The position numbers were made by a program, and so were the translations under genes. The notes under the pieces were generated by a model. That model was not told where the DNA came from. It did no database searches and worked only from the letters and a program-made list of their open reading frames with translations. Below, piece by piece: positions 1,348 to 38,411 of a stretch of DNA of 64,000 nt. The stretch comes from Nocardia iowensis (lineage in GTDB: Bacteria > Actinomycetota > Actinomycetes > Mycobacteriales > Mycobacteriaceae): NCBI RefSeq assembly GCF_019222765.1, contig NZ_CP078145.1, positions 4,402,001 to 4,466,000 on the forward strand, written 5' to 3'. Within the stretch, counting starts at the first letter, position 1, and each line of letters begins with the position of its first letter.

Positions 1348-1382
1348 GCGGGGTCGATTACCTCCGAGGTAATCGACCCCGC
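1348..1382 (-). terminator. Perfect 16-bp hairpin ending the mgtC-ABC operon
   Basis: The arms GCGGGGTCGATTACCT and AGGTAATCGACCCCGC are exact reverse complements around a CCG loop, 25 bases downstream of the ABC ATPase stop codon. There is no long U tract, as is common in actinobacteria. It lies where the minus-strand operon should end and before the next gene on that strand. Confidence 0.75.
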
Positions 1383-1407
1383 AGCGGCGTCGGTCGTGTT
1401 CCGGACG

Positions 1408-2754
1408 CTACGCGGTCCACTTCCCGCGCACGCCCGCGAAGATCTGGGCCGCCGGATCCGCGGTGATCTTGTCGGAATCGGTGTCGTAGTCGTACAACTC
1501 GGCGTAGCGCCCCCAGTCGATGGCGATATCGAGCTGGCGCCGCGCGTCTTCGGGCCCGAAGCCGCGGCGGAGCAAGTCGAGAAAGAAACCGGCGCGCAGG
1601 CTGCCATCGGAACTGCCTGCGAGTCCCTTACAGATGGTGCGGACCAACGGTGCGCGATGGCGGGCCTGTTCGGCGAAAATGCGCTTGCTCTCTTGGATGT
1701 CGGCGGTGGTGAACCGGGTGCCGATCTCGGTGAGCAGCACGTCGCCGTCTTCGACGGTGCTGAAACCGAGCATTTCGGCGGCGTCGACGAGCGGCAGGAG
1801 ACTGTCGATCTCGAAGTTCAGTTCGTCGGCGATGTCCGGGAGATCGGCGCGGCCACCGGTGGCGTAGACGAGCTCGACCAGACCCGCCAAGCCGCCGACC
1901 GAGGCGTCGGGCAGCGGCTGCGCGGTGGGGGTGGCCTTATCCGGTTCGGCGACAACGGGTTCGGTGTCGCGACCGGTGAGCAGGCCGTAGATCTGGTCGA
2001 CCATCGCCTCGAACCACGGTGCCCGCCGGTCGCGCGGGCGGGGCTGGGATACCGCGATTTCGGCGATGATTCGGCCCGGGTTGGAGCCGAGGACCAGCAC
2101 CCGGTCGGCCAGCTGCACCGCCTCCTCGATGTTGTGGGTGACGACGCAGATCGCCTTGGTGGGAAACCCGTCAGTGGCCCACAGGTTCACCAGTTCTGTG
2201 CGCAGGTTCTCCGCGGTGAGCACATCCAGAGCGGAGAACGGTTCGTCCATCAGCAACAGGTCGGGTTCGAGCACGAGCGCGCGGGCGAAGCCGACCCGCT
2301 GGCGCATACCGCCGGAAAGCTCCTTGGGATAGGCGGATTCGAAGCCGTCCAGGCCGATCATGTCGATCGCGGCCAGCGCCCGCTGCTGGCGTTCGGCGGG
2401 CGCGACGTTGCGGGCGGCGAGGCCGAGCTCGACATTGTCCTGCACGGTGAGCCACGGCATCAGCGCGAACGACTGGAACACCAGTGCGGCACCGGGATTG
2501 CTGCCGTTGAGCGGGGTGCCTCGATAGGTCACCTCGCCGTCGGACGGTGCGATGAGGCCCGCGATGATCCGCAGCAGGGTGGACTTGCCGGAGCCGGAAC
2601 GCCCAAGCAGGGCGACGATTTCGCCGCTGCGCAGTTGCAGATCGATACCGTCGAGCACCCGCAACTCGTCACCGGCGGCACCGGTGAATCGCTTGCCGAC
2701 GCCCGAGATGTCCAGCAGCACATCGCGGTCGGCCTGGGTGGTGGTCACGGTCAT
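1408..2754 (-). CDS. ABC transporter ATPase (NitT/TauT type) with C-terminal AAA-associated domain
   Basis: 448 residues. The first ~250 form an ABC ATPase: Walker A GRSGSGKST, Q-loop region ALVFQSFALMPW, signature LSGGMRQRVGFARAL, Walker B LLLMDEPFSALD and H-loop VTHNIEEAV, closest to nitrate/sulfonate/taurine importers. The last ~150 residues (DELNFEIDSLLPLVDAAEMLGF onward) match the AAA-associated C-terminal domain (PF09821 type) found on a subgroup of these ATPases, probably regulatory. It is the third gene of the M-box-controlled operon, 40 bp after the permease gene, and presumably energises that permease. No solute-binding protein is encoded nearby. The substrate is unknown. Confidence 0.93.
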   Translation of the reverse strand: MTVTTTQADRDVLLDISGVGKRFTGAAGDELRVLDGIDLQLRSGEIVALLGRSGSGKSTLLRIIAGLIAPSDGEVTYRGTPLNGSNPGAALVFQSFALMPWLTVQDNVELGLAARNVAPAERQQRALAAIDMIGLDGFESAYPKELSGGMRQRVGFARALVLEPDLLLMDEPFSALDVLTAENLRTELVNLWATDGFPTKAICVVTHNIEEAVQLADRVLVLGSNPGRIIAEIAVSQPRPRDRRAPWFEAMVDQIYGLLTGRDTEPVVAEPDKATPTAQPLPDASVGGLAGLVELVYATGGRADLPDIADELNFEIDSLLPLVDAAEMLGFSTVEDGDVLLTEIGTRFTTADIQESKRIFAEQARHRAPLVRTICKGLAGSSDGSLRAGFFLDLLRRGFGPEDARRQLDIAIDWGRYAELYDYDTDSDKITADPAAQIFAGVRGKWTA

Positions 2755-2794
2755 GATCGGTCTCCCGTCGAACGAATGCAGAGGTAGCCGGTGT

Positions 2795-4531
2795 TCACAG
2801 CGAGTACCGCCGTTCGGCCAGTGCGTAGAGCCGCCGCCAGAACAGTCGGTTGATGCCGACCACGTAGATGCTCATGACGAGCACGCCGATGAGGATGCGC
2901 GGGGAGTCACCGGCCTCGGTCGCCTCGGAGATATAGGAGCCGAGGCCCGCGGCCACCAGGGTGGTCGATCCGTACTGCACGACTTCCGCGACGATGGAGG
3001 CGTTCCAGGCGCCACCGGCCGCGGTGATCCCGCCGGTAACATAGCTGGGGAAGATGGCGGGCAGGATCAGCCTGCGCCACCACAGGTTTCGCGGCAATTG
3101 CAGATTTGCGGCGGCCTCGCGCAGATCGTTGGGTACCGCGCTGGCACCCGCGATGACGTTGAACAGGATGTACCACTGCGCGCCCAACGCCATCAGAATG
3201 GTGCCCGCCCAGTTCAAACTGGCTCCGCTCCAGACGAGTACGGCGGTGATGAACGGGAACAGGAAGTTGGCCGGGAAGCTGGCCAGCACCTGCACCACGG
3301 GCTGCGCGAGCCGGGAAACCTTGGGGTTCAACCCGATCCACACCCCGACCGGCACCCACACCACGGTGGCCAGCACCAGCAGCACCACCACCCGCAGCAG
3401 GGTCAAGAACCCGAGGCCGAAGGCATGCGCGACTTCGCCGAAGCCCGCTGTCGATTCGATGTAGTCGACGACCCGGTAGGCGCCGTAACCGATCGGCACC
3501 GCGACCACCGCGGCGAACAGCACGTCACCGGCGCGGCGGCGGATCGGTGGCGTGTGCAGTGGATGCTCGGCCAGTCCGAACACGCTCATCGCCCGGTCCA
3601 TCGGCGCGACCAGCGGGCCGAACACCTTGCCGAGCAGCAGCGGAACGTGCGAGCGCCGCAGCAGGTTCAGCATCAGGCTGCGCGGCGCCTCGGCGGCTTC
3701 GGTGTCCTCCACCCGGAACCGCTCCGACCACGCCGTGAGCGGCCGCCAGAACAGGAAGTTCACGCCGACGACCATCACGATCATGACGCCGATCGCGATG
3801 AACACCTTGCCGAGATCGCCGTCTCGGGTCGCGGTCGCGACATAGGAGCCGATGCCGGGCACCACGTACTTGTGGTTGTTCACGCTGATCGCCTCGGACG
3901 CGACCAGGAAGAACCAGCCGCCGCCGAAACTCATCATCCCGTTCCAGACCAGCGGGATCATGCCGCTCGGCACGTCGACGCGCCAGAACCGTTGCCAGCG
4001 CGACAGTCTCAGGTTGCGCGCCGCCTCGTCCAGCTCACGCGGCTGGGAGGCCAGGCTGTGGTAGAACGCGAACGCCATGTTCCAGGCCTGCGAGGTGAAG
4101 ATCGCGAAGATGGCGGCGCTTTCGAGGCCGAGCTCGGAGCCGGGAAACAGCGCGATGAACCCGGCGACGGTGATCGACAGGAACCCGAGGATCGGCACCG
4201 ACTGGAGGATGTCGAGCAGCGGTAGCAGCACCGTGCGTGCCCGGCGCAGTCGCGCCGCCGCCGTCGCGTACACGAAGGTGAAAACGATCGACAACCCCAG
4301 CGCAGCGAACATCCGCAGCAGCGAGCGGGCCGCGTAGTAGGGCAGTTGATCGGGATCGGTGGACACCGTCGCGGGCGCGTCGGCCTCGTCGAACGGCACA
4401 TTCGCACTCGCCGAGACTCGCACGATCAGCCAGATCAGCACCGCCGCGCCGACGAACACGACAACGTCGGCGAACCGGTTGCGTGGCCGGTCGAGCGCAC
4501 TACGGGAGGGGAAGGAACGCAAAAGAGTCAT
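2795..4531 (-). CDS. Double-domain ABC transporter permease
   Basis: 578 residues with two binding-protein-dependent permease domains in one chain. Each has an EAA-type loop for ATPase contact: 'ELDEAARNLRLSRWQRFWRV' in the N-half and 'DLREAAANLQLPRNLWWRRL' in the C-half. Around twelve hydrophobic segments are visible. The start is ATG 4531, which overlaps the mgtC stop codon as ATGA, indicating translational coupling; the open frame further upstream is a shadow of mgtC. The two-in-one permease plus the adjacent ATPase gives a complete membrane complex without a binding protein. Control by a Mg2+ riboswitch suggests a role in Mg2+ starvation, but transport of Mg2+ itself is not shown. Confidence 0.93.
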   Translation of the reverse strand: MTLLRSFPSRSALDRPRNRFADVVVFVGAAVLIWLIVRVSASANVPFDEADAPATVSTDPDQLPYYAARSLLRMFAALGLSIVFTFVYATAAARLRRARTVLLPLLDILQSVPILGFLSITVAGFIALFPGSELGLESAAIFAIFTSQAWNMAFAFYHSLASQPRELDEAARNLRLSRWQRFWRVDVPSGMIPLVWNGMMSFGGGWFFLVASEAISVNNHKYVVPGIGSYVATATRDGDLGKVFIAIGVMIVMVVGVNFLFWRPLTAWSERFRVEDTEAAEAPRSLMLNLLRRSHVPLLLGKVFGPLVAPMDRAMSVFGLAEHPLHTPPIRRRAGDVLFAAVVAVPIGYGAYRVVDYIESTAGFGEVAHAFGLGFLTLLRVVVLLVLATVVWVPVGVWIGLNPKVSRLAQPVVQVLASFPANFLFPFITAVLVWSGASLNWAGTILMALGAQWYILFNVIAGASAVPNDLREAAANLQLPRNLWWRRLILPAIFPSYVTGGITAAGGAWNASIVAEVVQYGSTTLVAAGLGSYISEATEAGDSPRILIGVLVMSIYVVGINRLFWRRLYALAERRYSL

Positions 4532-5244
4532 GCCTGCGGTCCCTTCACATCCGTCGCGGCGATGTGCCAGCCGACGCTGGTCACCGACGGTTCCAGGCTG
4601 AGCCTGCTCACCGCGGTCTCCATCTGGCGGTCGTCGCGCTGGTCGCCGAACAGTTCGGCACGCACCTCGACCCGGCCCGGGGTGCCGGTATTGGCGCTGG
4701 AGATCGAGATCAGCTGGAAGTCGGTGCGGGTCAGCGCCTGCACCAGCAGGGCGCGCACGTGCGCCTCGTTGGCATCGTTGGTGACGGCGACGAACGCGTA
4801 GGAAGCGGGTTGTTCGTGACCGGCTTCCGGCTGCCGGTCGACGGCCCGGCCCGCGGCGCGCAGTGCGACGTTGACCCCGACCACGGCGACCGTGCCCGCT
4901 GCGGCCGTGCCGAACATGCCCGCGCCTGCCAGTGCGCCGACCGCTGCCGCGCACCACAGCGTGGCCGCGGTGTTGAGGCCGCGCACATTGAGTCCGTCAC
5001 GGATGATCACGCCCGCGCCGAGGAAGCCGATTCCGGACACGATCTGCGCCGCGACGCGAGTCGGGTCGGCGACTTCGCCGTGGAAGCCGTGCGCCGACAA
5101 CAGCACGAACAGGGTGGCGCCGACAGCGACGAGCGCGTTGGTGCGCAGCCCCGCCATTCGGGCCCGATACTGCCGCTCGAAGCCGATGACGGCGCCGAGG
5201 CCGACGCCGGTGAGCAGCCGGAGGATCATCTCCACTGTTGTCAT
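4528..5244 (-). CDS. mgtC: MgtC/SapB family membrane protein
   Basis: 238 residues. The N-terminal ~145 residues are the MgtC/SapB membrane domain, with the family pattern 'LGAVIGFERQ...AGLRTNALVAVGA' and 'GIGFLGAGVI', and four to five hydrophobic segments. The remaining ~90 residues form a soluble ACT-like C-terminal domain, as in mycobacterial MgtC. MgtC proteins act at low Mg2+ and in intracellular survival; in Salmonella MgtC inhibits the F1Fo ATP synthase and affects phosphate uptake. AGGGAG lies 7 nt before the ATG. It is first in the operon, directly behind the M-box leader, and its stop overlaps the permease start by ATGA. Confidence 0.95.
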   Translation of the reverse strand: MTTVEMILRLLTGVGLGAVIGFERQYRARMAGLRTNALVAVGATLFVLLSAHGFHGEVADPTRVAAQIVSGIGFLGAGVIIRDGLNVRGLNTAATLWCAAAVGALAGAGMFGTAAAGTVAVVGVNVALRAAGRAVDRQPEAGHEQPASYAFVAVTNDANEAHVRALLVQALTRTDFQLISISSANTGTPGRVEVRAELFGDQRDDRQMETAVSRLSLEPSVTSVGWHIAATDVKGPQA

Positions 5245-5289
5245 GACCGCACTCCCTGAACATGTCAGCGCACCGTCGAAAACAGCAGG

Positions 5290-5382
5290 TTACGGGGCTT
5301 GTCCCGAAACGGAATCGGCTGTTGAGGTGTCGCCGGGTGAATATTTGGCAAATTGGGGATACGGACTATTACCGCCGGGCAT
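5290..5382 (-). CDS. Candidate 30-residue leader peptide upstream of mgtC
   Basis: An ATG at 5382 preceded by a strong ribosome site (GGGAGGTGAG, ATG 4 nt later) opens a 30-codon frame ending TAA, 45 nt before mgtC. It lies between the M-box and mgtC. It contains five Pro codons (positions 2, 7, 9, 16 and 30), including SPYPQ near the start and Pro as the last codon before the stop, a slow termination context. Enterobacterial mgtCBR and mgtA leaders also use Pro-containing leader ORFs, so a translation-sensing role is a reasonable inference, but no homology is claimed. Confidence 0.55.
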   Translation of the reverse strand: MPGGNSPYPQFAKYSPGDTSTADSVSGQAP

Positions 5383-5462
5383 CCGGCTCACCTCCCTCGT
5401 CTCTCGGCGCACGGCGAAGCCGGGCGTTGTTTGTTCGATCGTTGCAGAGCGCAGCAGGAGAA

Positions 5463-5480
5463 CCCGGCAAAAACGCCGGT
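5463..5480 (-). terminator. Small hairpin just after the M-box, possible expression platform
   Basis: On the minus strand, 5-bp GC arms CCGGC and GCCGG enclose a U-rich loop, within ~25 nt of the riboswitch 3' end. It could be part of an attenuator, but there is no trailing U tract, so its role is uncertain. Confidence 0.3.
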
Positions 5481-5489
5481 AAGGACCCC

Positions 5490-5645
5490 TCCTCGTAAGA
5501 CCTTTGGCACTTCACGGCGTGAACCCGGTGGACCGGGAGCCAATCGGGATCACCCCTTAAGCCGGGGAGATCTGTCCTGACCCGGGGCGTCTCTCGACGT
5601 TCGGGGTCGCTGGCCTGTTTCCGTGAAGGAGCCTCAGCGAACGAT
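5490..5645 (-). promoter_or_regulatory. M-box (ykoK) Mg2+-sensing riboswitch
   Basis: Read on the minus strand, the leader has the M-box conserved blocks in order. CGCUGAGGCUCCU is at about 5625-5640, then GGAAACAGGCC, then ACGUCGAGAGACGCC at 5586-5600. GGGUCAGGACAG follows, and the 3' closing block GUGAAGUGCCAAAGG...UUACGAGG lies at 5490-5517. In known M-boxes Mg2+ binding compacts the RNA and reduces expression of downstream Mg2+ homeostasis genes. The next full gene is mgtC, as expected. The distance from M-box to mgtC (~245 nt) is long and contains a leader ORF. Confidence 0.92.
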
Positions 5646-5663
5646 CGGCACCTTGCGCAGGCC

Positions 5664-5692
5664 AGTAAACACCCGAATGGAAACATTGGCAA
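5664..5692 (-). promoter_or_regulatory. Promoter of the M-box/mgtC transcript
   Basis: On the minus strand, TTGCCA (5687-5692) and TTTACT (5664-5669) are separated by 17 nt, a good sigma-70-like pair. Initiation would fall near 5657, about a dozen nucleotides before the first conserved M-box block, which is the spacing expected for a riboswitch transcript. Confidence 0.55.
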
Positions 5693-6988: not shown

Positions 6989-8317
6989 TCATCCGCCACT
7001 TTCCAGCGGCAGCCCGGCATCCCGCCAGGCAACGATCCCACCGGCCAGGCTCGCGGCGTCGTACCCCGCCTGCTGCGCGCGGCCGGCAAACCGCAGCGAC
7101 AGCTCACCCACCGGGCAGACGAACACCACCGGTCGGGAGCGGGGGAACGGAATGCCATGAGCGAACATCTCGTCGAGCTGATCATCGCGAATATTGAGCG
7201 CGCCGGGCACGTGCCCGATCCGGTAGGCCATCGCGCCGCGGGTGTCGACGATGGTCGGCTTGCCGGTGCGCTCCAACTCGGCCAGCTCGGCGGGCGAAAG
7301 TGTCGGTGTGGCAGCCAATTCCGTGGCGGTCGGTGGCGGTCGGCGCTCGGCGCGACCGAACAGCTCCGGTCTGCGCTTCTTGATGTAGGACAGGTATGGC
7401 TCCAACCGGTCGCAGACGATGAACACCGCGACGATCGGTCCGTCCGTCCGCTGTGCCGAATCAGCCGCTGCCGCAAGGGTGTCCAGCGCCGCCGCGTAGC
7501 TGGCTCCGCTGGTCGGCCCGGCCAGGATGCCGTACCCGGTGGCGAGCCGAAGGGTGGCGTCGACCGCGTGCGCGGCCTCGACGGTCACGATGTCGTCGTA
7601 GAAGTCGGGCTGGAACAGGCCGACATCCCACATCTCACTCTCCGAGCGGATGCCGGGAATGAAGTCGGTGCGGCCGGAAACCACGGCGACGGTGCGCAAT
7701 TCGGGATTGTGCTTGCGCAGATAGGTGGCGGCGCCCCTCGTCGAACCCGTGGTACCCAGCCCGCCGATCAGGTAGTCGACCCTGGTGATGCCGTCGGCGG
7801 CCAGGTCCTCGTGGATCTCCCGGCCGGTGCCGTGATGATGCGCCTCGACGTTCTTCTCGTTGGTGTACTGCGACGGGTGATGGTACACGCCGGGGTGCTG
7901 TGCCATGGTCGCCTCGATCACCGAGTACACGTCGTTCGGTGTCGTCGGGTCCGGGCACTCGGACAGTCCGGGCAACTCGACGATGTCGGTGTCGAACAGC
8001 TGCAACAGCTCACGTACCTCGGCGACCTTGATCCGGTTGGTGACGGCGCGCAGCCCGATGCCGTGGATGGCGCCAAGGATCCGCAGCGCCTTGGCGGTAT
8101 TGCCGCTCGACGCCTCGATGAAGGTCTGCCCGTTGGCCAGGATGGTGTCGAGATCGTCGCGGATCATGCCCCACGCCACTCGGTCCTTGACCGAGCCGAA
8201 GGGATTGTGCGACTCCAGCTTCGCGTACAGCTCGACGTCGGGCAGACCGTGCACGGCGGGGTCGAGCCGCAGCAGGGGAGTGTTGCCGATGAGTTCGGTG
8301 ATGTGGTCGTAGCGCAT
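6989..8317 (-). CDS. PLP-dependent cysteine synthase fused to a rhodanese domain
   Basis: 442 residues. Residues ~1-320 are a fold-type II cysteine synthase/cystathionine beta-synthase-like enzyme: PLP Lys in NPFGSVKDRVA, SGNT phosphate/substrate loop in EASSGNTAKAL, glycine loop GLGTTGSTRG and GPTSGASYAAAL. Residues ~340-442 are a rhodanese domain (IVDTRGAMAYRIGHVPGALNI) with the persulfide Cys in VFVCPVGELS. The start at 8317 gives a TGATG overlap with the upstream gene; the 14-codon longer frame is rejected. It is the last gene of a four-gene operon. Likely chemistry is beta-replacement with a sulfur (or amine) nucleophile, with the rhodanese handling persulfide; the product is unknown. 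Confidence 0.9.
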   Translation of the reverse strand: MRYDHITELIGNTPLLRLDPAVHGLPDVELYAKLESHNPFGSVKDRVAWGMIRDDLDTILANGQTFIEASSGNTAKALRILGAIHGIGLRAVTNRIKVAEVRELLQLFDTDIVELPGLSECPDPTTPNDVYSVIEATMAQHPGVYHHPSQYTNEKNVEAHHHGTGREIHEDLAADGITRVDYLIGGLGTTGSTRGAATYLRKHNPELRTVAVVSGRTDFIPGIRSESEMWDVGLFQPDFYDDIVTVEAAHAVDATLRLATGYGILAGPTSGASYAAALDTLAAAADSAQRTDGPIVAVFIVCDRLEPYLSYIKKRRPELFGRAERRPPPTATELAATPTLSPAELAELERTGKPTIVDTRGAMAYRIGHVPGALNIRDDQLDEMFAHGIPFPRSRPVVFVCPVGELSLRFAGRAQQAGYDAASLAGGIVAWRDAGLPLESGG

Positions 8318-9903
8318 CACGGCGCCCCGGTGGGTCGGCGCGGCATCGGCGGGCGCCACGGTCCGTGCGGTGAGGTGCGGCGGTGCGGCGGCAACCCGAC
8401 CGGCAGGTGCGGTTCATAGTCCGGGTCGCGGTATACCTGGAAGCTGCCCGCCCGGTGCGCGACCGACAGTTTGATCGGCGGTGGCCGCATCGAGGCCGTC
8501 GCCGCGGACAGATCCATGTGATAGGCAGCGGTATTCGGGAACACCACCAGATCGCCTGGGCGCGGCCGCTCCGGCAGCCAGACTTTGTGATTGGTGATCA
8601 GATCCCGCTCCAGACAGAGGCGCCCGGCGAAATACACACCGACAGGCCCGGTTTCGGTTACCGGATGCAGGCTCGGCGAGGTGTCGCCCGCCCCCAGCGT
8701 CGGCACCACCGCACCGTCGACCGGGACGGCGGGGGCCGGACGGTGCGCGGTGGTGGGCAGGACGACCGGATCGACCATCACCTCCTGATCGGCCGGAGTC
8801 ACCGAGTCGCGGCTGAGGTCGACATTCACCAGGACGCTGCCGTCGGCGATCTCCTTGACGAAGTCGACCCTGGCCACCGTCACCCCGGCGTGGTCGACCA
8901 GTGCCTTGCCCGGCTCCAGCCACACGTCCAGGAGATTGTCCGAGGCCAGCTCGGCGACCGTGCGCCCGCCGTGTCGCTCCAGCGGGGCGGTGAGTAGATC
9001 ATCGAGCATGGTGGTCGCCGGAATCGTGTTGGCGTACTTGTGGAAAATCGGTGTCCCGTGCACCGTGCCGCCCGCCACGTGATAGCCGAAGGTGTTGCTG
9101 CCCCAGCTCATCGGCTCACCATGGCCGAGCAGCGATTCGCGCAGCGCGTGCACATAGCGGTCGAACCGGTCGGCATCGGCGGTGAAGACCTGCCGGAACC
9201 CGCCGCCGATATTCAGCACCGACGGCGTGAGCCCGTAACCGTAGGCTCGTTCGATCAGCGCCAGACATGCCTCGATCGCGCGGATCCGTTCGCCGATGTC
9301 ACCGGAGTCGAGATGAAAAGCGAAGCCGAGGAACGCGATCCGGCTACGGTGTGCCGAGAGCACGTCGAAGGCGCGCTGGATGTGCGCCAGCGGCACGCCG
9401 AACCGGCTAACCTGTGCCTCGTCGAATCCGGAAACCCGTAGCAGCACCGGCACTTTCGCGCGGTCCCCGGCCAGCTCGGCGATCCGCCGCAGTTCCCACA
9501 GATTGTCCACGTTGATCGTGACGCCGCAGTCGATCAGATCCCGCAGGAACACTTCGCCTTTCGGCCCGGTCACCTCGATCCGCATCGGTCCGAAGCCCGC
9601 ACCCACCGCGGCCGCCAACTCCTGTGGCGAGGCGACATCGATGGAAATTCCGGCGTGTTCGGCGGTGCGTACGAAAGCGCGCGACTGGTTCACCTTGTGT
9701 GCGTAGCAGATTCGGTGCCGTGGCAGCCGGTGGTCGAGCACCGCGCGGAATCGCTTCAGATTCTCCGTGTAGACCTGCGGGAACAGCAGGTGCACCGGCG
9801 AGCCGAACCGGATCAGCGTCTCTTCCACGGCGTCCGGGGTATCGAGAAAGGCGCGTACCAGCGGATGGATCTTCGCGGGTAGCGCCGGTAGCGGTGCTGT
9901 CAT
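8317..9903 (-). CDS. PLP-dependent decarboxylase, DapDC/Orn fold III class (Y4yA-like)
   Basis: 528 residues. It has the fold-type III barrel with PLP Lys in ICYAHKVNQSRAF, a FHLDSG segment, the glycine motif NIGGGF, and the C-terminal CxExD-type motif (GRLCLERDLI) followed by FPNTAAYHMD, the counterparts of the diaminopimelate decarboxylase active-site Cys and Tyr. It resembles the uncharacterised Y4yA group (from memory; in rhizobia a cysteine synthase-like gene lies close by). A ~45-residue Pro/Arg-rich tail follows. ATG 9903 overlaps the preceding stop by ATGA; the longer upstream frame is a shadow. The substrate is probably an amino acid made by the neighbouring PLP enzymes. Confidence 0.88.
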   Translation of the reverse strand: MTAPLPALPAKIHPLVRAFLDTPDAVEETLIRFGSPVHLLFPQVYTENLKRFRAVLDHRLPRHRICYAHKVNQSRAFVRTAEHAGISIDVASPQELAAAVGAGFGPMRIEVTGPKGEVFLRDLIDCGVTINVDNLWELRRIAELAGDRAKVPVLLRVSGFDEAQVSRFGVPLAHIQRAFDVLSAHRSRIAFLGFAFHLDSGDIGERIRAIEACLALIERAYGYGLTPSVLNIGGGFRQVFTADADRFDRYVHALRESLLGHGEPMSWGSNTFGYHVAGGTVHGTPIFHKYANTIPATTMLDDLLTAPLERHGGRTVAELASDNLLDVWLEPGKALVDHAGVTVARVDFVKEIADGSVLVNVDLSRDSVTPADQEVMVDPVVLPTTAHRPAPAVPVDGAVVPTLGAGDTSPSLHPVTETGPVGVYFAGRLCLERDLITNHKVWLPERPRPGDLVVFPNTAAYHMDLSAATASMRPPPIKLSVAHRAGSFQVYRDPDYEPHLPVGLPPHRRTSPHGPWRPPMPRRPTGAP

Positions 9904-11189
9904 ACCGCGGTTTCCGACGGCTGTGCGGGCACGGCACCCTTGGGCGCGCCGTCGGGTTTTTCGGCGACGGGGTTGTAGCCGCCGTCCCGGATGGCCTCGA
10001 ATGCCCTGGCCCGATTGCGCGGACTGCGGAATTCGGCGACCACCCGCTTGCTGACCAGATCGATTTCGACCACCCGGATGTCCATTGACTCCAGCACTCC
10101 GCCGATCGTCCGGACACAGTGCTTGCAGGTCATATCCGGCACGTAGAACACGCGATCCTCGGCGGTGGCCGCGCGATCGGCGTCGTCGCCGTCCAGGTCG
10201 GCACTCACCTCGACGAGCGCGCACCGCTCGGCGACCTCGGTGAACACCGCGACGAACTGATCGATCACCACCGGCAGGATGCTGTAGTGCCCGCCGCCGA
10301 GGTGATGCGGCATCGCGGCCAGGCAGGCGGGGCGGGTGCCCGCGGGCAGCAGCGCGTACTGGCGGGAGATGAGGTCCAGGTCCTCGTGGTACTTGGCGAT
10401 CGCCTCCGCAACGCTGAGTCCCTCGACATGGGTGGCGCGGCGCATCACCGTGTGGGCGTCGGAGATGGTGGCGTCCTTCATCGCGCGCAGCGTCGCCACG
10501 GTCTCGGCGGAGTAGCGCACGGTGCCGTCGGGCTGCGCGATCAGCGTCACCGGGATCATCCCGCGCCGGTAGGTGGACGCCTGTAGCTCCCAATACCAGC
10601 GGGTGGCGACGGCGGCGAAGAGGCCGGATTCGCGCATGCCGCAGGCGAATTCGGCCGCACCGCGATATGGCGTCTGCCGCGCGAGCAGGGCGTGCTGGGC
10701 GAGCGCCCGACCGGCGGCTTCGATGCCGACCCGGAAGATATCCATCGGCTCGTGGTCGGTGGTGGTGCCTGCCAGTACCGCGTGCTCACGCGGACCGAGT
10801 GCCGAAATACGTTCGGCGAAAGATGTATTCGCGTCGAGGGCATGCCAGAGTGCGAGCACGGTCTCGCGCATGGCGATGGGTACCAGCGGGCCGAGGCCGT
10901 CCACCCGATAGTGGCCGGTATTGGGGATGCCGTCGCTGTCGGTCCAGGTGATCCGATGGGTGGCGCTGGTGACCTGATACGGGCGGCAGGGGCGCATGAA
11001 CCGCTCCAGGTACAGCCGCTGTGAGTAGGTGAGGTGGCTGTTCGGCTCGGTATGCAGTGCGGTGCGGGTGAATTCGAACTTGCGCCGCTCGGGGACGGGC
11101 ACCGGCGCCGCGAACAGCCCCGGCTGCGCCAGCCCGGCGAGCACCCGGGACGCGGCCCGACGGTCGTAGCGCGGGGTGTCCATAGTCAT
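9900..11189 (-). CDS. Uncharacterised protein with C-terminal heavy-metal-associated (HMA) domain
   Basis: 429 residues. Residues ~1-340 match no family I recognise; they contain many His, Tyr and Arg and a motif MPHHLGGGHYS. Residues ~350-415 are a ferredoxin-like HMA domain with the metal-binding loop DMTCKHCVRTIGGVL (CxxC), as in copper chaperones and P-type ATPase tails. The start at 11189 overlaps the upstream stop by ATGA, with GGAGGTCAG before it; the 10-codon longer frame is less likely. Being embedded between PLP enzymes by overlapping stops and starts argues that it works in the same pathway, perhaps as a metal-dependent synthase or metal-delivery protein. Confidence 0.85.
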   Translation of the reverse strand: MTMDTPRYDRRAASRVLAGLAQPGLFAAPVPVPERRKFEFTRTALHTEPNSHLTYSQRLYLERFMRPCRPYQVTSATHRITWTDSDGIPNTGHYRVDGLGPLVPIAMRETVLALWHALDANTSFAERISALGPREHAVLAGTTTDHEPMDIFRVGIEAAGRALAQHALLARQTPYRGAAEFACGMRESGLFAAVATRWYWELQASTYRRGMIPVTLIAQPDGTVRYSAETVATLRAMKDATISDAHTVMRRATHVEGLSVAEAIAKYHEDLDLISRQYALLPAGTRPACLAAMPHHLGGGHYSILPVVIDQFVAVFTEVAERCALVEVSADLDGDDADRAATAEDRVFYVPDMTCKHCVRTIGGVLESMDIRVVEIDLVSKRVVAEFRSPRNRARAFEAIRDGGYNPVAEKPDGAPKGAVPAQPSETAV

Positions 11190-37460: not shown

Positions 37461-38411
37461 GTGACCACCGCGTTGACCGATCGCGATATTCTGCGCGAAC
37501 TGGAACCCGTCGCCGAACGTTTGCTCAATGACCACCTGCGCAAAGCCAAGGCGTGGAACCCGCACGATTATGTGCCGTGGGACGACGGCCGCAACTTCGC
37601 CGCACTCGGCGGAATCGATTGGGAGCCGGGCCAATCCAAGCTGTCCGAGGTGGCCCGGACCGCTATGGTGACCAACCTGCTCACCGAGGACAATCTGCCG
37701 TCCTATCACCGCGAGATCTCGGAGACGTTCTCCCTCGACGGCGTGTGGGGCACCTGGGTCGGCCGCTGGACCGCCGAGGAAAATCGGCACGCCATCGTCA
37801 TGCGCGACTATTTGGTGGTTACCCGCGCGGTCGACCCGGTGCTGCTGGAACAGGCCCGGATGGCGCATATGACCACGGGCATCGCGAAACCCGAAAAAGG
37901 GCAGCAATTCCTGCGTTCGGTCGCCTATGTCACCTTGCAGGAACTGGCTACCAGAATCAGTCACCGGAACACCGGAACCGCATGCGACGAACCCATCGCC
38001 GAGCGTATGCTGCAACGGATCGCCGCCGACGAAAACCTGCACATGATCTTCTACCGCAACATCAGCGCAGCGGCCCTCGATCTGATGCCGAACGAATCGC
38101 TGCGTGCCATCACCGACATCGTCACGCGCTTCCAGATGCCCGGTCTCACCCAGCCGAACTTCCGCCGCAACGCGGTGGTGCTCGCCAAACACGGCATCTA
38201 CGACCTCCGTCAGCACCTGGACGTAGTGGTGCGGCCGGTGCTGCGGGCGTGGAATGTCTTCGAGCGCACGGACCTATCCGGCGACGGCGAACGGGCGCGC
38301 GACGAGCTCGCCGCCTACCTCGACGAATTGGCCACGAAGGCAACGAGATTCGAAGAGCAGCGGGACCGGGTGGCGGCCAGGCAGGCAGAACGAGCCGCCG
38401 TAGCGAGATGA
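37461..38411 (+). CDS. DesA-type acyl-ACP desaturase
   Basis: 316 residues. Di-iron ligand motifs are seen: TAEENRHAIVMRDYL (EExxH) and ADENLHMIFYRN (DExxH), plus 'LTEDNLPSYHREISETF' near the N-terminus, as in plant-type stearoyl-ACP desaturases and mycobacterial DesA1/DesA2. It probably introduces a double bond in acyl-ACP for mycolate or membrane lipid synthesis. GTG 37461 has AAGGAG 5 nt upstream. The stop overlaps the start of the esterase gene by ATGA. Confidence 0.94.
   Translation: MTTALTDRDILRELEPVAERLLNDHLRKAKAWNPHDYVPWDDGRNFAALGGIDWEPGQSKLSEVARTAMVTNLLTEDNLPSYHREISETFSLDGVWGTWVGRWTAEENRHAIVMRDYLVVTRAVDPVLLEQARMAHMTTGIAKPEKGQQFLRSVAYVTLQELATRISHRNTGTACDEPIAERMLQRIAADENLHMIFYRNISAAALDLMPNESLRAITDIVTRFQMPGLTQPNFRRNAVVLAKHGIYDLRQHLDVVVRPVLRAWNVFERTDLSGDGERARDELAAYLDELATKATRFEEQRDRVAARQAERAAVAR

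Follow-up and report, generated by a model that had tools for sequence, protein, structure and literature searches.

A predicted M-box operon of Nocardia iowensis joins mgtC to an ABC transporter pair that recurs beside Mg2+ genes

Organization of the M-box operon

The window, a 64,000-nt stretch of Nocardia iowensis (contig NZ_CP078145.1, positions 4,402,001–4,466,000), contained a Mg2+ riboswitch of the M-box type followed by mgtC and the two genes of an ATP-binding cassette (ABC) transporter. The elements lay on the minus strand in the order promoter, M-box, leader open reading frame (ORF), mgtC, permease, ATPase, and hairpin, and their positions are given in window coordinates. The M-box aptamer (RF00380; 5482–5652) matched the covariance model over its full length with 121.3 bits (gathering cut-off 44, E 1.2e-26), which confirmed the M-box that a first-pass annotation had placed at 5490–5645. 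No other M-box was found in the genome, a single contig of 8.95 Mb, and the aptamer scored 176 bits with a custom model built partly from the window sequence.

The mgtC gene (4528–5244) encoded 238 residues, matched PF02308 (126.8 bits) and PF21770 (91.4 bits) above the Pfam cut-offs, and contained both the transmembrane and the C-terminal domains of the MgtC/SapB family. The permease gene (2795–4531; 578 residues) encoded a duplicated ABC permease with two transmembrane domains, in which PF00528 (BPD_transp_1) was found in two stretches; a structural model and its fold matches agreed with this assignment. Both halves presumably carry an EAA-type loop, as judged by eye. The closest named relatives of the permease were Nocardia proteins with 92% identity. 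The ATPase gene (1408–2754; 448 residues) combined PF00005 (ABC_tran) with a C-terminal PF09821 domain (AAA_assoc_C, 140.9 bits), for which it was the sole match across the genome. The stop of mgtC overlapped the start of the permease gene in an ATGA (4531–4528), and the permease and ATPase genes were separated by 40 nt. From these spacings, we infer that mgtC, the permease, and the ATPase are carried on a single transcript. Pfam and the sequence reproduced the gene content proposed earlier, namely MgtC, a double-domain permease whose start overlaps mgtC in an ATGA, and an ATPase carrying an AAA-associated domain. The missing binding protein was likewise borne out: none was present among nine neighbouring window proteins (Pfam), an orphan copy elsewhere in the genome not being searched for, and none was annotated in 10 plasmid regions with related pairs, for which the gene table was incomplete.

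A probable promoter (5664–5692) was located directly 5′ of the aptamer and consisted of a −35 element TTGCCA (5692–5687), a 17-nt spacer, and a −10 element TTTACT (5669–5664). The TTGC and TTTACT cores were kept in 19 of the 19 Nocardia-type leaders compared (the window, 17 Nocardia loci, and locus L019 from a metagenome-assembled genome), with spacing not measured in every row, and the −10 element differed in four Tsukamurella leaders. The earlier claim of a well-placed promoter was supported by conservation, on which the probable assignment is based, but not by a sigma-70 consensus scan, which reported no promoter.

Downstream of the ATPase gene, a perfect hairpin (1348–1382) was formed by two 17-nt arms with 1 nt between them, and its minimum free energy was far better than that of shuffled sequences (z −6.87). 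The hairpin itself was as the first-pass annotation had described it, but its role as the end of the transcript was less secure, as no T-run followed the arms and it was missing from the output of the terminator scan. A simple intrinsic terminator was rejected for the lack of a T-run. Among eight relatives, the hairpin was present in L003–L007 and absent in L009, L061, and L010, and its palindrome core occurred at four sites in the genome with two mismatches or fewer. Either termination without a U-run or a function as operator of the next gene is possible for this hairpin.

Leader region and expression platform

The 3′ end of the aptamer contained a Shine–Dalgarno (SD) sequence, SD1 (AGGAGGGG; 5486–5493), a possible anti-anti-SD analogous to the SD1 described in PMC12810186. 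A candidate anti-SD, TTCTCCT (5456–5462), lay 24 nt beyond SD1 and could form 7 pairs with it. A second sequence, SD2 (AGGGAGGT; 5390–5397), was situated in a region conserved across the leaders and led a 30-residue ORF, MPGGNSPYPQFAKYSPGDTSTADSVSGQAP (5290–5382), between the M-box and mgtC. This leader ORF, absent from the first-pass annotation, resembled the mycobacterial uORF2. Alternatively, as modelled for mycobacteria, SD2 could be masked by a segment in the middle of the leader.

In a second Nocardia group, 77 of 78 cells of the SD1/anti-SD duplex were paired among 13 of 15 leaders, with L025 lacking the segment and L058 falling outside the search pattern. As this pattern itself favours pairing, only the position that it leaves free counts; there, the 13 leaders, which are close kin, had five A-U, five G-C, and three G-U pairs and no mismatch. 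The energy controls came out negative. Anti-SD pairing outdid dinucleotide shuffles at the 0.05 level in 1 of 31 leaders when scored with SD1, in none of 31 with SD2, and in 1 of 31 jointly (4 of 35 leaders had no pattern-matching SD2 and were left unscored), and the fold of the whole leader was no better than shuffles (z 0.08). The duplex-energy argument was dropped, and the covariation was kept as weak support.

The leader peptide of the window begins with MPGGNSPYP and has a proline at residue 7. By eye, an ORF beginning in a similar way (MPGGNSP, MPDGSDRVP, MPDDSHS, or MSDGSHS) was recognized in 30 of 31 M-box/ABC leaders, a set of 34 from which the near duplicates L008, L071, and L073 had been left out. 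Conservation of the ORF was contradicted by L010, which had none, and by L006 and L007, in which the frame was lost after the N-terminus, in the 3′ half. When M-box leaders of every source were scanned more strictly, 65 of 88 had an SD-led ORF, the misses including L010 and L025. One of the motifs SPY, GPY, or YPYP lay among the 12 N-terminal residues of this ORF in 24 of the 88 leaders and in none of the mononucleotide shuffles, the motif having been picked after the peptides were viewed and the leaders being kin. These 24 included named Nocardia loci and L110 from a Mycolicibacterium frederiksbergense genome, and SPYP-type leader ORFs were shared by Nocardia and Mycolicibacterium. The Tsukamurella ORFs had no SPYP, and their likeness was limited to place, SD, and the first residues.

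Two further observations concerned the leaders. A stretch around 5327–5349 in the 3′ half of the ORF, similar to GCCAAnnnTTCACCnGGyGACAC, was conserved despite the frame loss in L006 (4163–4418) and L007, and was also kept in L010. Conservation of nucleotides where the frame or the ORF is lost makes a role of this stretch at the RNA level possible. Loci L108–L128, mostly from Nocardia and including the Mycolicibacterium locus L110, contained an M-box of a second type whose leader ORF was KSGDSPYP-like. As seen by eye, 14 of these 21 loci were followed by a small protein similar to LTPQERHNLRAAQTPLAVVSASLGAHPYHR. We assume that this protein may be a counterpart of Rv1535.

According to the available text of D'Halluin et al. 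2026 (PMC12810186), the M-box of the Mycobacterium tuberculosis pe20 operon acts on translation together with Rho, and the uORF2 (Rv1805A) that follows it was called mycobacteria-specific from nine genomes. As described there, the pe20 operon shares with the Nocardia operon an SD1 at the M-box end, an SD2-led leader ORF, and mgtC, and uORF2, known here by the description of Rv1805A only, shares with the window ORF a conserved N-terminus and Pro7 (PMC12810186). In contrast to the pe20 operon, the Nocardia operon had no PE/PPE genes, and mgtC came first, followed by the ABC pair. The terms "ABC transporter", "permease", and "Nocardia" did not occur in the main text of PMC12810186. The uORF2-type leader ORF thus appears to extend beyond mycobacteria to Nocardia, with a weaker likeness in Tsukamurella. 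Its presence suggests a translational M-box, and such an expression platform is likely by homology.

M-box aptamers fold at high Mg2+. In the proposed mechanism, folding of the aptamer at high Mg2+ would allow the anti-SD to pair with SD2 and would leave the leader ORF untranslated, so that transcription would end early, with Rho as the probable agent by analogy with M. tuberculosis. When Mg2+ is low, the aptamer would open, the leader ORF would be translated, and mgtC, the permease, and the ATPase would be made.

Linkage of the ABC pair to Mg2+ genes

In a search of genome contigs with the ATPase, the best 80 of 271 confirmed relatives were kept and were classified by tblastn and by an M-box model built from 26 M-boxes. 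An M-box with mgtC was found in 33 loci, mgtC with a Mg2+ P-type ATPase in 21, and a P-type ATPase without mgtC in 8; the remainder had mgtC alone (6), mgtC with Nramp (2), Nramp (1), or none of these (9). L019 was counted with mgtC on the basis of a match limited to residues 186–231, and its ABC pair was whole. The model TIGR01524 for Mg2+ P-type ATPases was passed by 8 of 10 upstream proteins scanned, from 8 loci, and the other two, a monooxygenase and a kinase of L034, were unrelated to it; the P-type ATPase loci beyond those eight rest on tblastn. The linkage of mgtC and the ABC genes, for which comparison with related genomes had been proposed, therefore recurred in many genomes and was not local.

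Since the 80 loci had been chosen for similarity, a less biased family sample of 251 genomes from 31 genera was drawn, with a permease cut-off of E 1e-100 and stricter M-box filters, which lose weak matches. The permease was found in 23 genomes (6 of the 31 genera) and the M-box in 62. Of the 23 permease genomes, 22 had an M-box, compared with 40 of the 228 genomes in which the permease was not found (Fisher 3e-14, uncorrected for kinship). The M-box was located upstream of the permease, on the same strand and within 1.1 kb, in 20 of the 23 genomes and 5 of the 6 permease-holding genera. In genomes G515, G539, and G288, the M-box lay 161, 287, and 358 nt before the permease match, a gap too short for mgtC, and no mgtC match was found, so that the M-box directly preceded the ABC pair. 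This arrangement was seen in three genomes, which came from two genera, and the loci showing it were L148, L149, and L150. In samples across the phylum the permease was rare, with 18 of 396 genomes (E 1e-30), and the M-box was present in 22 of 296. As a separate observation, Streptomyces orinoci (G345/L082) had eight M-boxes, five of them within about 17 kb of one contig together with the ABC pair and Nramp.

Every Nocardia copy among the 80 loci followed mgtC, as would be expected if the ABC genes were passengers placed by chance behind it. This explanation is very improbable, because the M-box directly preceded the permease in L148, L149, and L150, because eight loci combined the pair with a P-type ATPase and no mgtC, and because L019 had kept the pair whole beside a reduced mgtC.

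In a quick permease tree of 91 rows, from which 20 of 110 loci were excluded (near duplicates, the distant L159–L167, and one fragment), a minimum of six changes was needed for the label "M-box" and of nine for "Mg-linked or not", with many branches weak; the well-supported branches alone forced three changes for "M-box+mgtC". These label changes indicate that the tie to Mg2+ genes was probably gained or lost repeatedly. The P-type ATPases of L072, L077, and L078 had about 45% identity to that of L039, and their MgtC proteins had 48–52% identity to the window MgtC, which points to a separate assembly of those loci. In L012, L013, L144, and L158, the Nramp gene stood with a CBS protein, which contained PRC, MgtE_N, and CBS domains in the three scanned (L012, L144, and L158). 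The pairing of such a protein with Nramp looks as if the sensor domain of MgtE had become detached.

The pair was also found on plasmids. A 413 kb plasmid of Tsukamurella tyrosinosolvens (L142) carried the complete M-box–mgtC–permease–ATPase operon, and in plasmid L144 the M-box was on the strand opposite to the ABC pair, where it preceded a short ORF followed by the genes of the CBS protein and NRAMP. Plasmids of Thermus, Paraburkholderia, Rhizobium, Pantoea, Legionella, Azospirillum, Nostoc, and Allomeiothermus carried the pair without an M-box, with Nramp as its neighbour in Thermus, VIT in Paraburkholderia, and katG in Rhizobium.

Several results weighed against the connection of the pair with Mg2+. 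The 80 loci were picked as the best ATPase matches, many from Nocardia, and nine had no Mg2+ gene, although three of these (L074, L076, and L079) were contigs shorter than 5.3 kb. In the family sample, 14 of the 23 permease genomes belonged to one genus, the M-boxes of G585 and G427 were on other contigs, and G638 had no M-box. The label "none" was assigned to 17 of the 91 tree rows. Of the eight non-actinobacterial plasmid regions, Thermus alone, with Nramp, had one of the genes sought, and this speaks against assigning a Mg2+ role to the family as a whole.

The operon is nevertheless, as judged from the sequence comparisons, real, conserved, and Mg2+-linked. The pair recurred beside M-boxes, mgtC, Mg2+ P-type ATPases, and Nramp/MgtE_N-CBS genes, from which we infer a role in Mg2+ starvation; the operon probably serves Mg2+ limitation with the ABC pair as one of its components. 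The earlier suggestion of an ABC transporter used in Mg2+ stress gained support from the M-boxes before the permease (L148, L149, and L150), and was strengthened by the Mg2+ P-type ATPases and the Nramp/MgtE_N-CBS genes of other lineages.

Candidate substrates of the ABC pair

The pair had the BPD permease fold and an ATPase of the NitT/TauT branch, and lacked a cognate binding protein in the cluster. It thus resembled the importers NrtBCD and CmpBCD in its permease fold and the relation of its ATPase, but differed in its fused permease halves, in having no binding protein in the cluster, in the absence of the arginine of the LRTVP segment, and in a conserved Asp107. No homology to CorA, MgtE, MgtA/B, or NrmT was found among the Pfam and NCBIfam matches (for the ATPase, the best 25 of 188 NCBIfam matches). 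The permease model (predicted local distance difference test score, pLDDT, 76; predicted template modelling score, pTM, 0.77) matched type I importers, with the fused ferric permease FbpB first, followed by CmpB and NrtB.

In the main rival reading, which is possible although short of probable, the pair only shares its regulation with Mg2+ genes and imports a different solute that is required at low Mg2+, such as phosphate, bicarbonate, an organic anion, or a chelator. The only sequence matches among solved permeases were CmpB (bicarbonate) and NrtB (nitrate), both of which carry anions, and this weighs against Mg2+ as the substrate. The best NCBIfam permease matches were nitrate and taurine permeases, all below their cut-offs, and MgtC was reported, in the accessible part of PMC6658541, to promote phosphate uptake in Salmonella. 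However, the LRTVP segment of CmpB and NrtB corresponded to LQSVP in the first half of the window permease, preceded by Asp107, and to LASFP in the second half, with the arginine replaced by Gln110 and Ala417, respectively. Residues Asp107, Gln110, Ala417, Asn510, and Glu516 were invariant across the 109 aligned permeases with a residue there (109 of 111; L143 and L163, fragmentary or broken, were excluded). The missing arginine together with an invariant Asp107 lowers the likelihood of nitrate and bicarbonate and would fit a cation, whereas residues invariant throughout the family do not point to Mg2+ alone. In addition, phosphate and nitrate genes were not annotated in the 10 plasmid regions, further loci not being scanned for them.

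A transporter of another divalent metal (Mn2+ or Fe), with only an indirect reason for its Mg2+-controlled placement, is an unlikely explanation. It would fit the Nramp neighbours in L139, L144, L158, L012, L013, and L082, the VIT family and katG genes found next to the pair in other phyla, and the ferric-ion permease as the top fold match. On the other hand, the Nramp genes of L012, L144, and L158 adjoined MgtE_N and CBS proteins, and the Mn2+ riboswitch yybP-ykoY was absent from 22 related loci and the 10 plasmid regions in an Rfam search. M-box-linked Nramp proteins of Clostridium are Mg2+ transporters (NrmT), as stated in the available part of PMC4072509.

NrmT, an Nramp-related protein, was previously identified through its M-box (PMC4072509, available part), and like the Nocardia pair it belongs to a transporter family with other known substrates and stands under an M-box. 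Unlike it, the Nocardia operon has an ABC pair in place of Nramp. According to the portion available of PMC3641672, Salmonella mgtCBR similarly combines mgtC, a Mg2+ transporter gene, and leader ORFs. It is to be compared with the P-type ATPase–mgtC–ABC loci among the 80 relatives. The mgtCBR leader RNA is of a different kind, and the operon is not known to contain an ABC pair.

We consider, tentatively and with reserve, that the duplicated permease and the AAA_assoc_C ATPase might form an ABC importer that takes up Mg2+ or a Mg2+ complex independently of a binding protein, which would represent a new class. The final step of the mechanism would then be, as the leading guess, uptake of Mg2+, by itself or in a complex, that is driven by ATP and needs no binding protein. 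No paper linking this ABC family to Mg2+ was found among the listed open-licence PubMed Central titles and abstract beginnings. The wording "magnesium ABC transporter", as it appears in the visible parts of some papers, was a label for MgtA or MgtB and was set aside. The duplicated permease is listed in a table of Liberibacter crescens genes, in the section "Essential gene set" of the available part of PMC4837290.

Two other features of the window were recorded. An adjoining pair on the minus strand (6989–9912) encoded a PALP-rhodanese fusion similar to cysteine synthase and a pyridoxal phosphate-dependent protein of the ornithine/arginine decarboxylase type. A match to the ASdes small RNA (RF01781, 60.4 bits; 37779–37846, minus strand) was antisense within a coding frame on the plus strand (37461–38411), which by eye resembled an acyl-ACP desaturase (ACP, acyl carrier protein); the match may be conserved coding sequence.

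The bacterial Mg2+ transporters listed in the available parts of PMC12810186 and PMC4072509 are CorA, CorB/C, MgtA/B, MgtE, and NrmT, none of them an ABC transporter, and the function of MgtC is termed elusive in PMC12810186. The repeated link of a widespread ABC family to M-boxes and Mg2+ genes offers a direct handle on its function, and MgtC gains a conserved neighbour to test. With a uORF2-type ORF in Nocardia, the role of this ORF in Mg2+ control would be open to study in further genera. If the reading of the pair as a Mg2+ importer is true, the pair would add a class to the Mg2+ transporters of bacteria, one that is produced along with MgtC under the control of an M-box.

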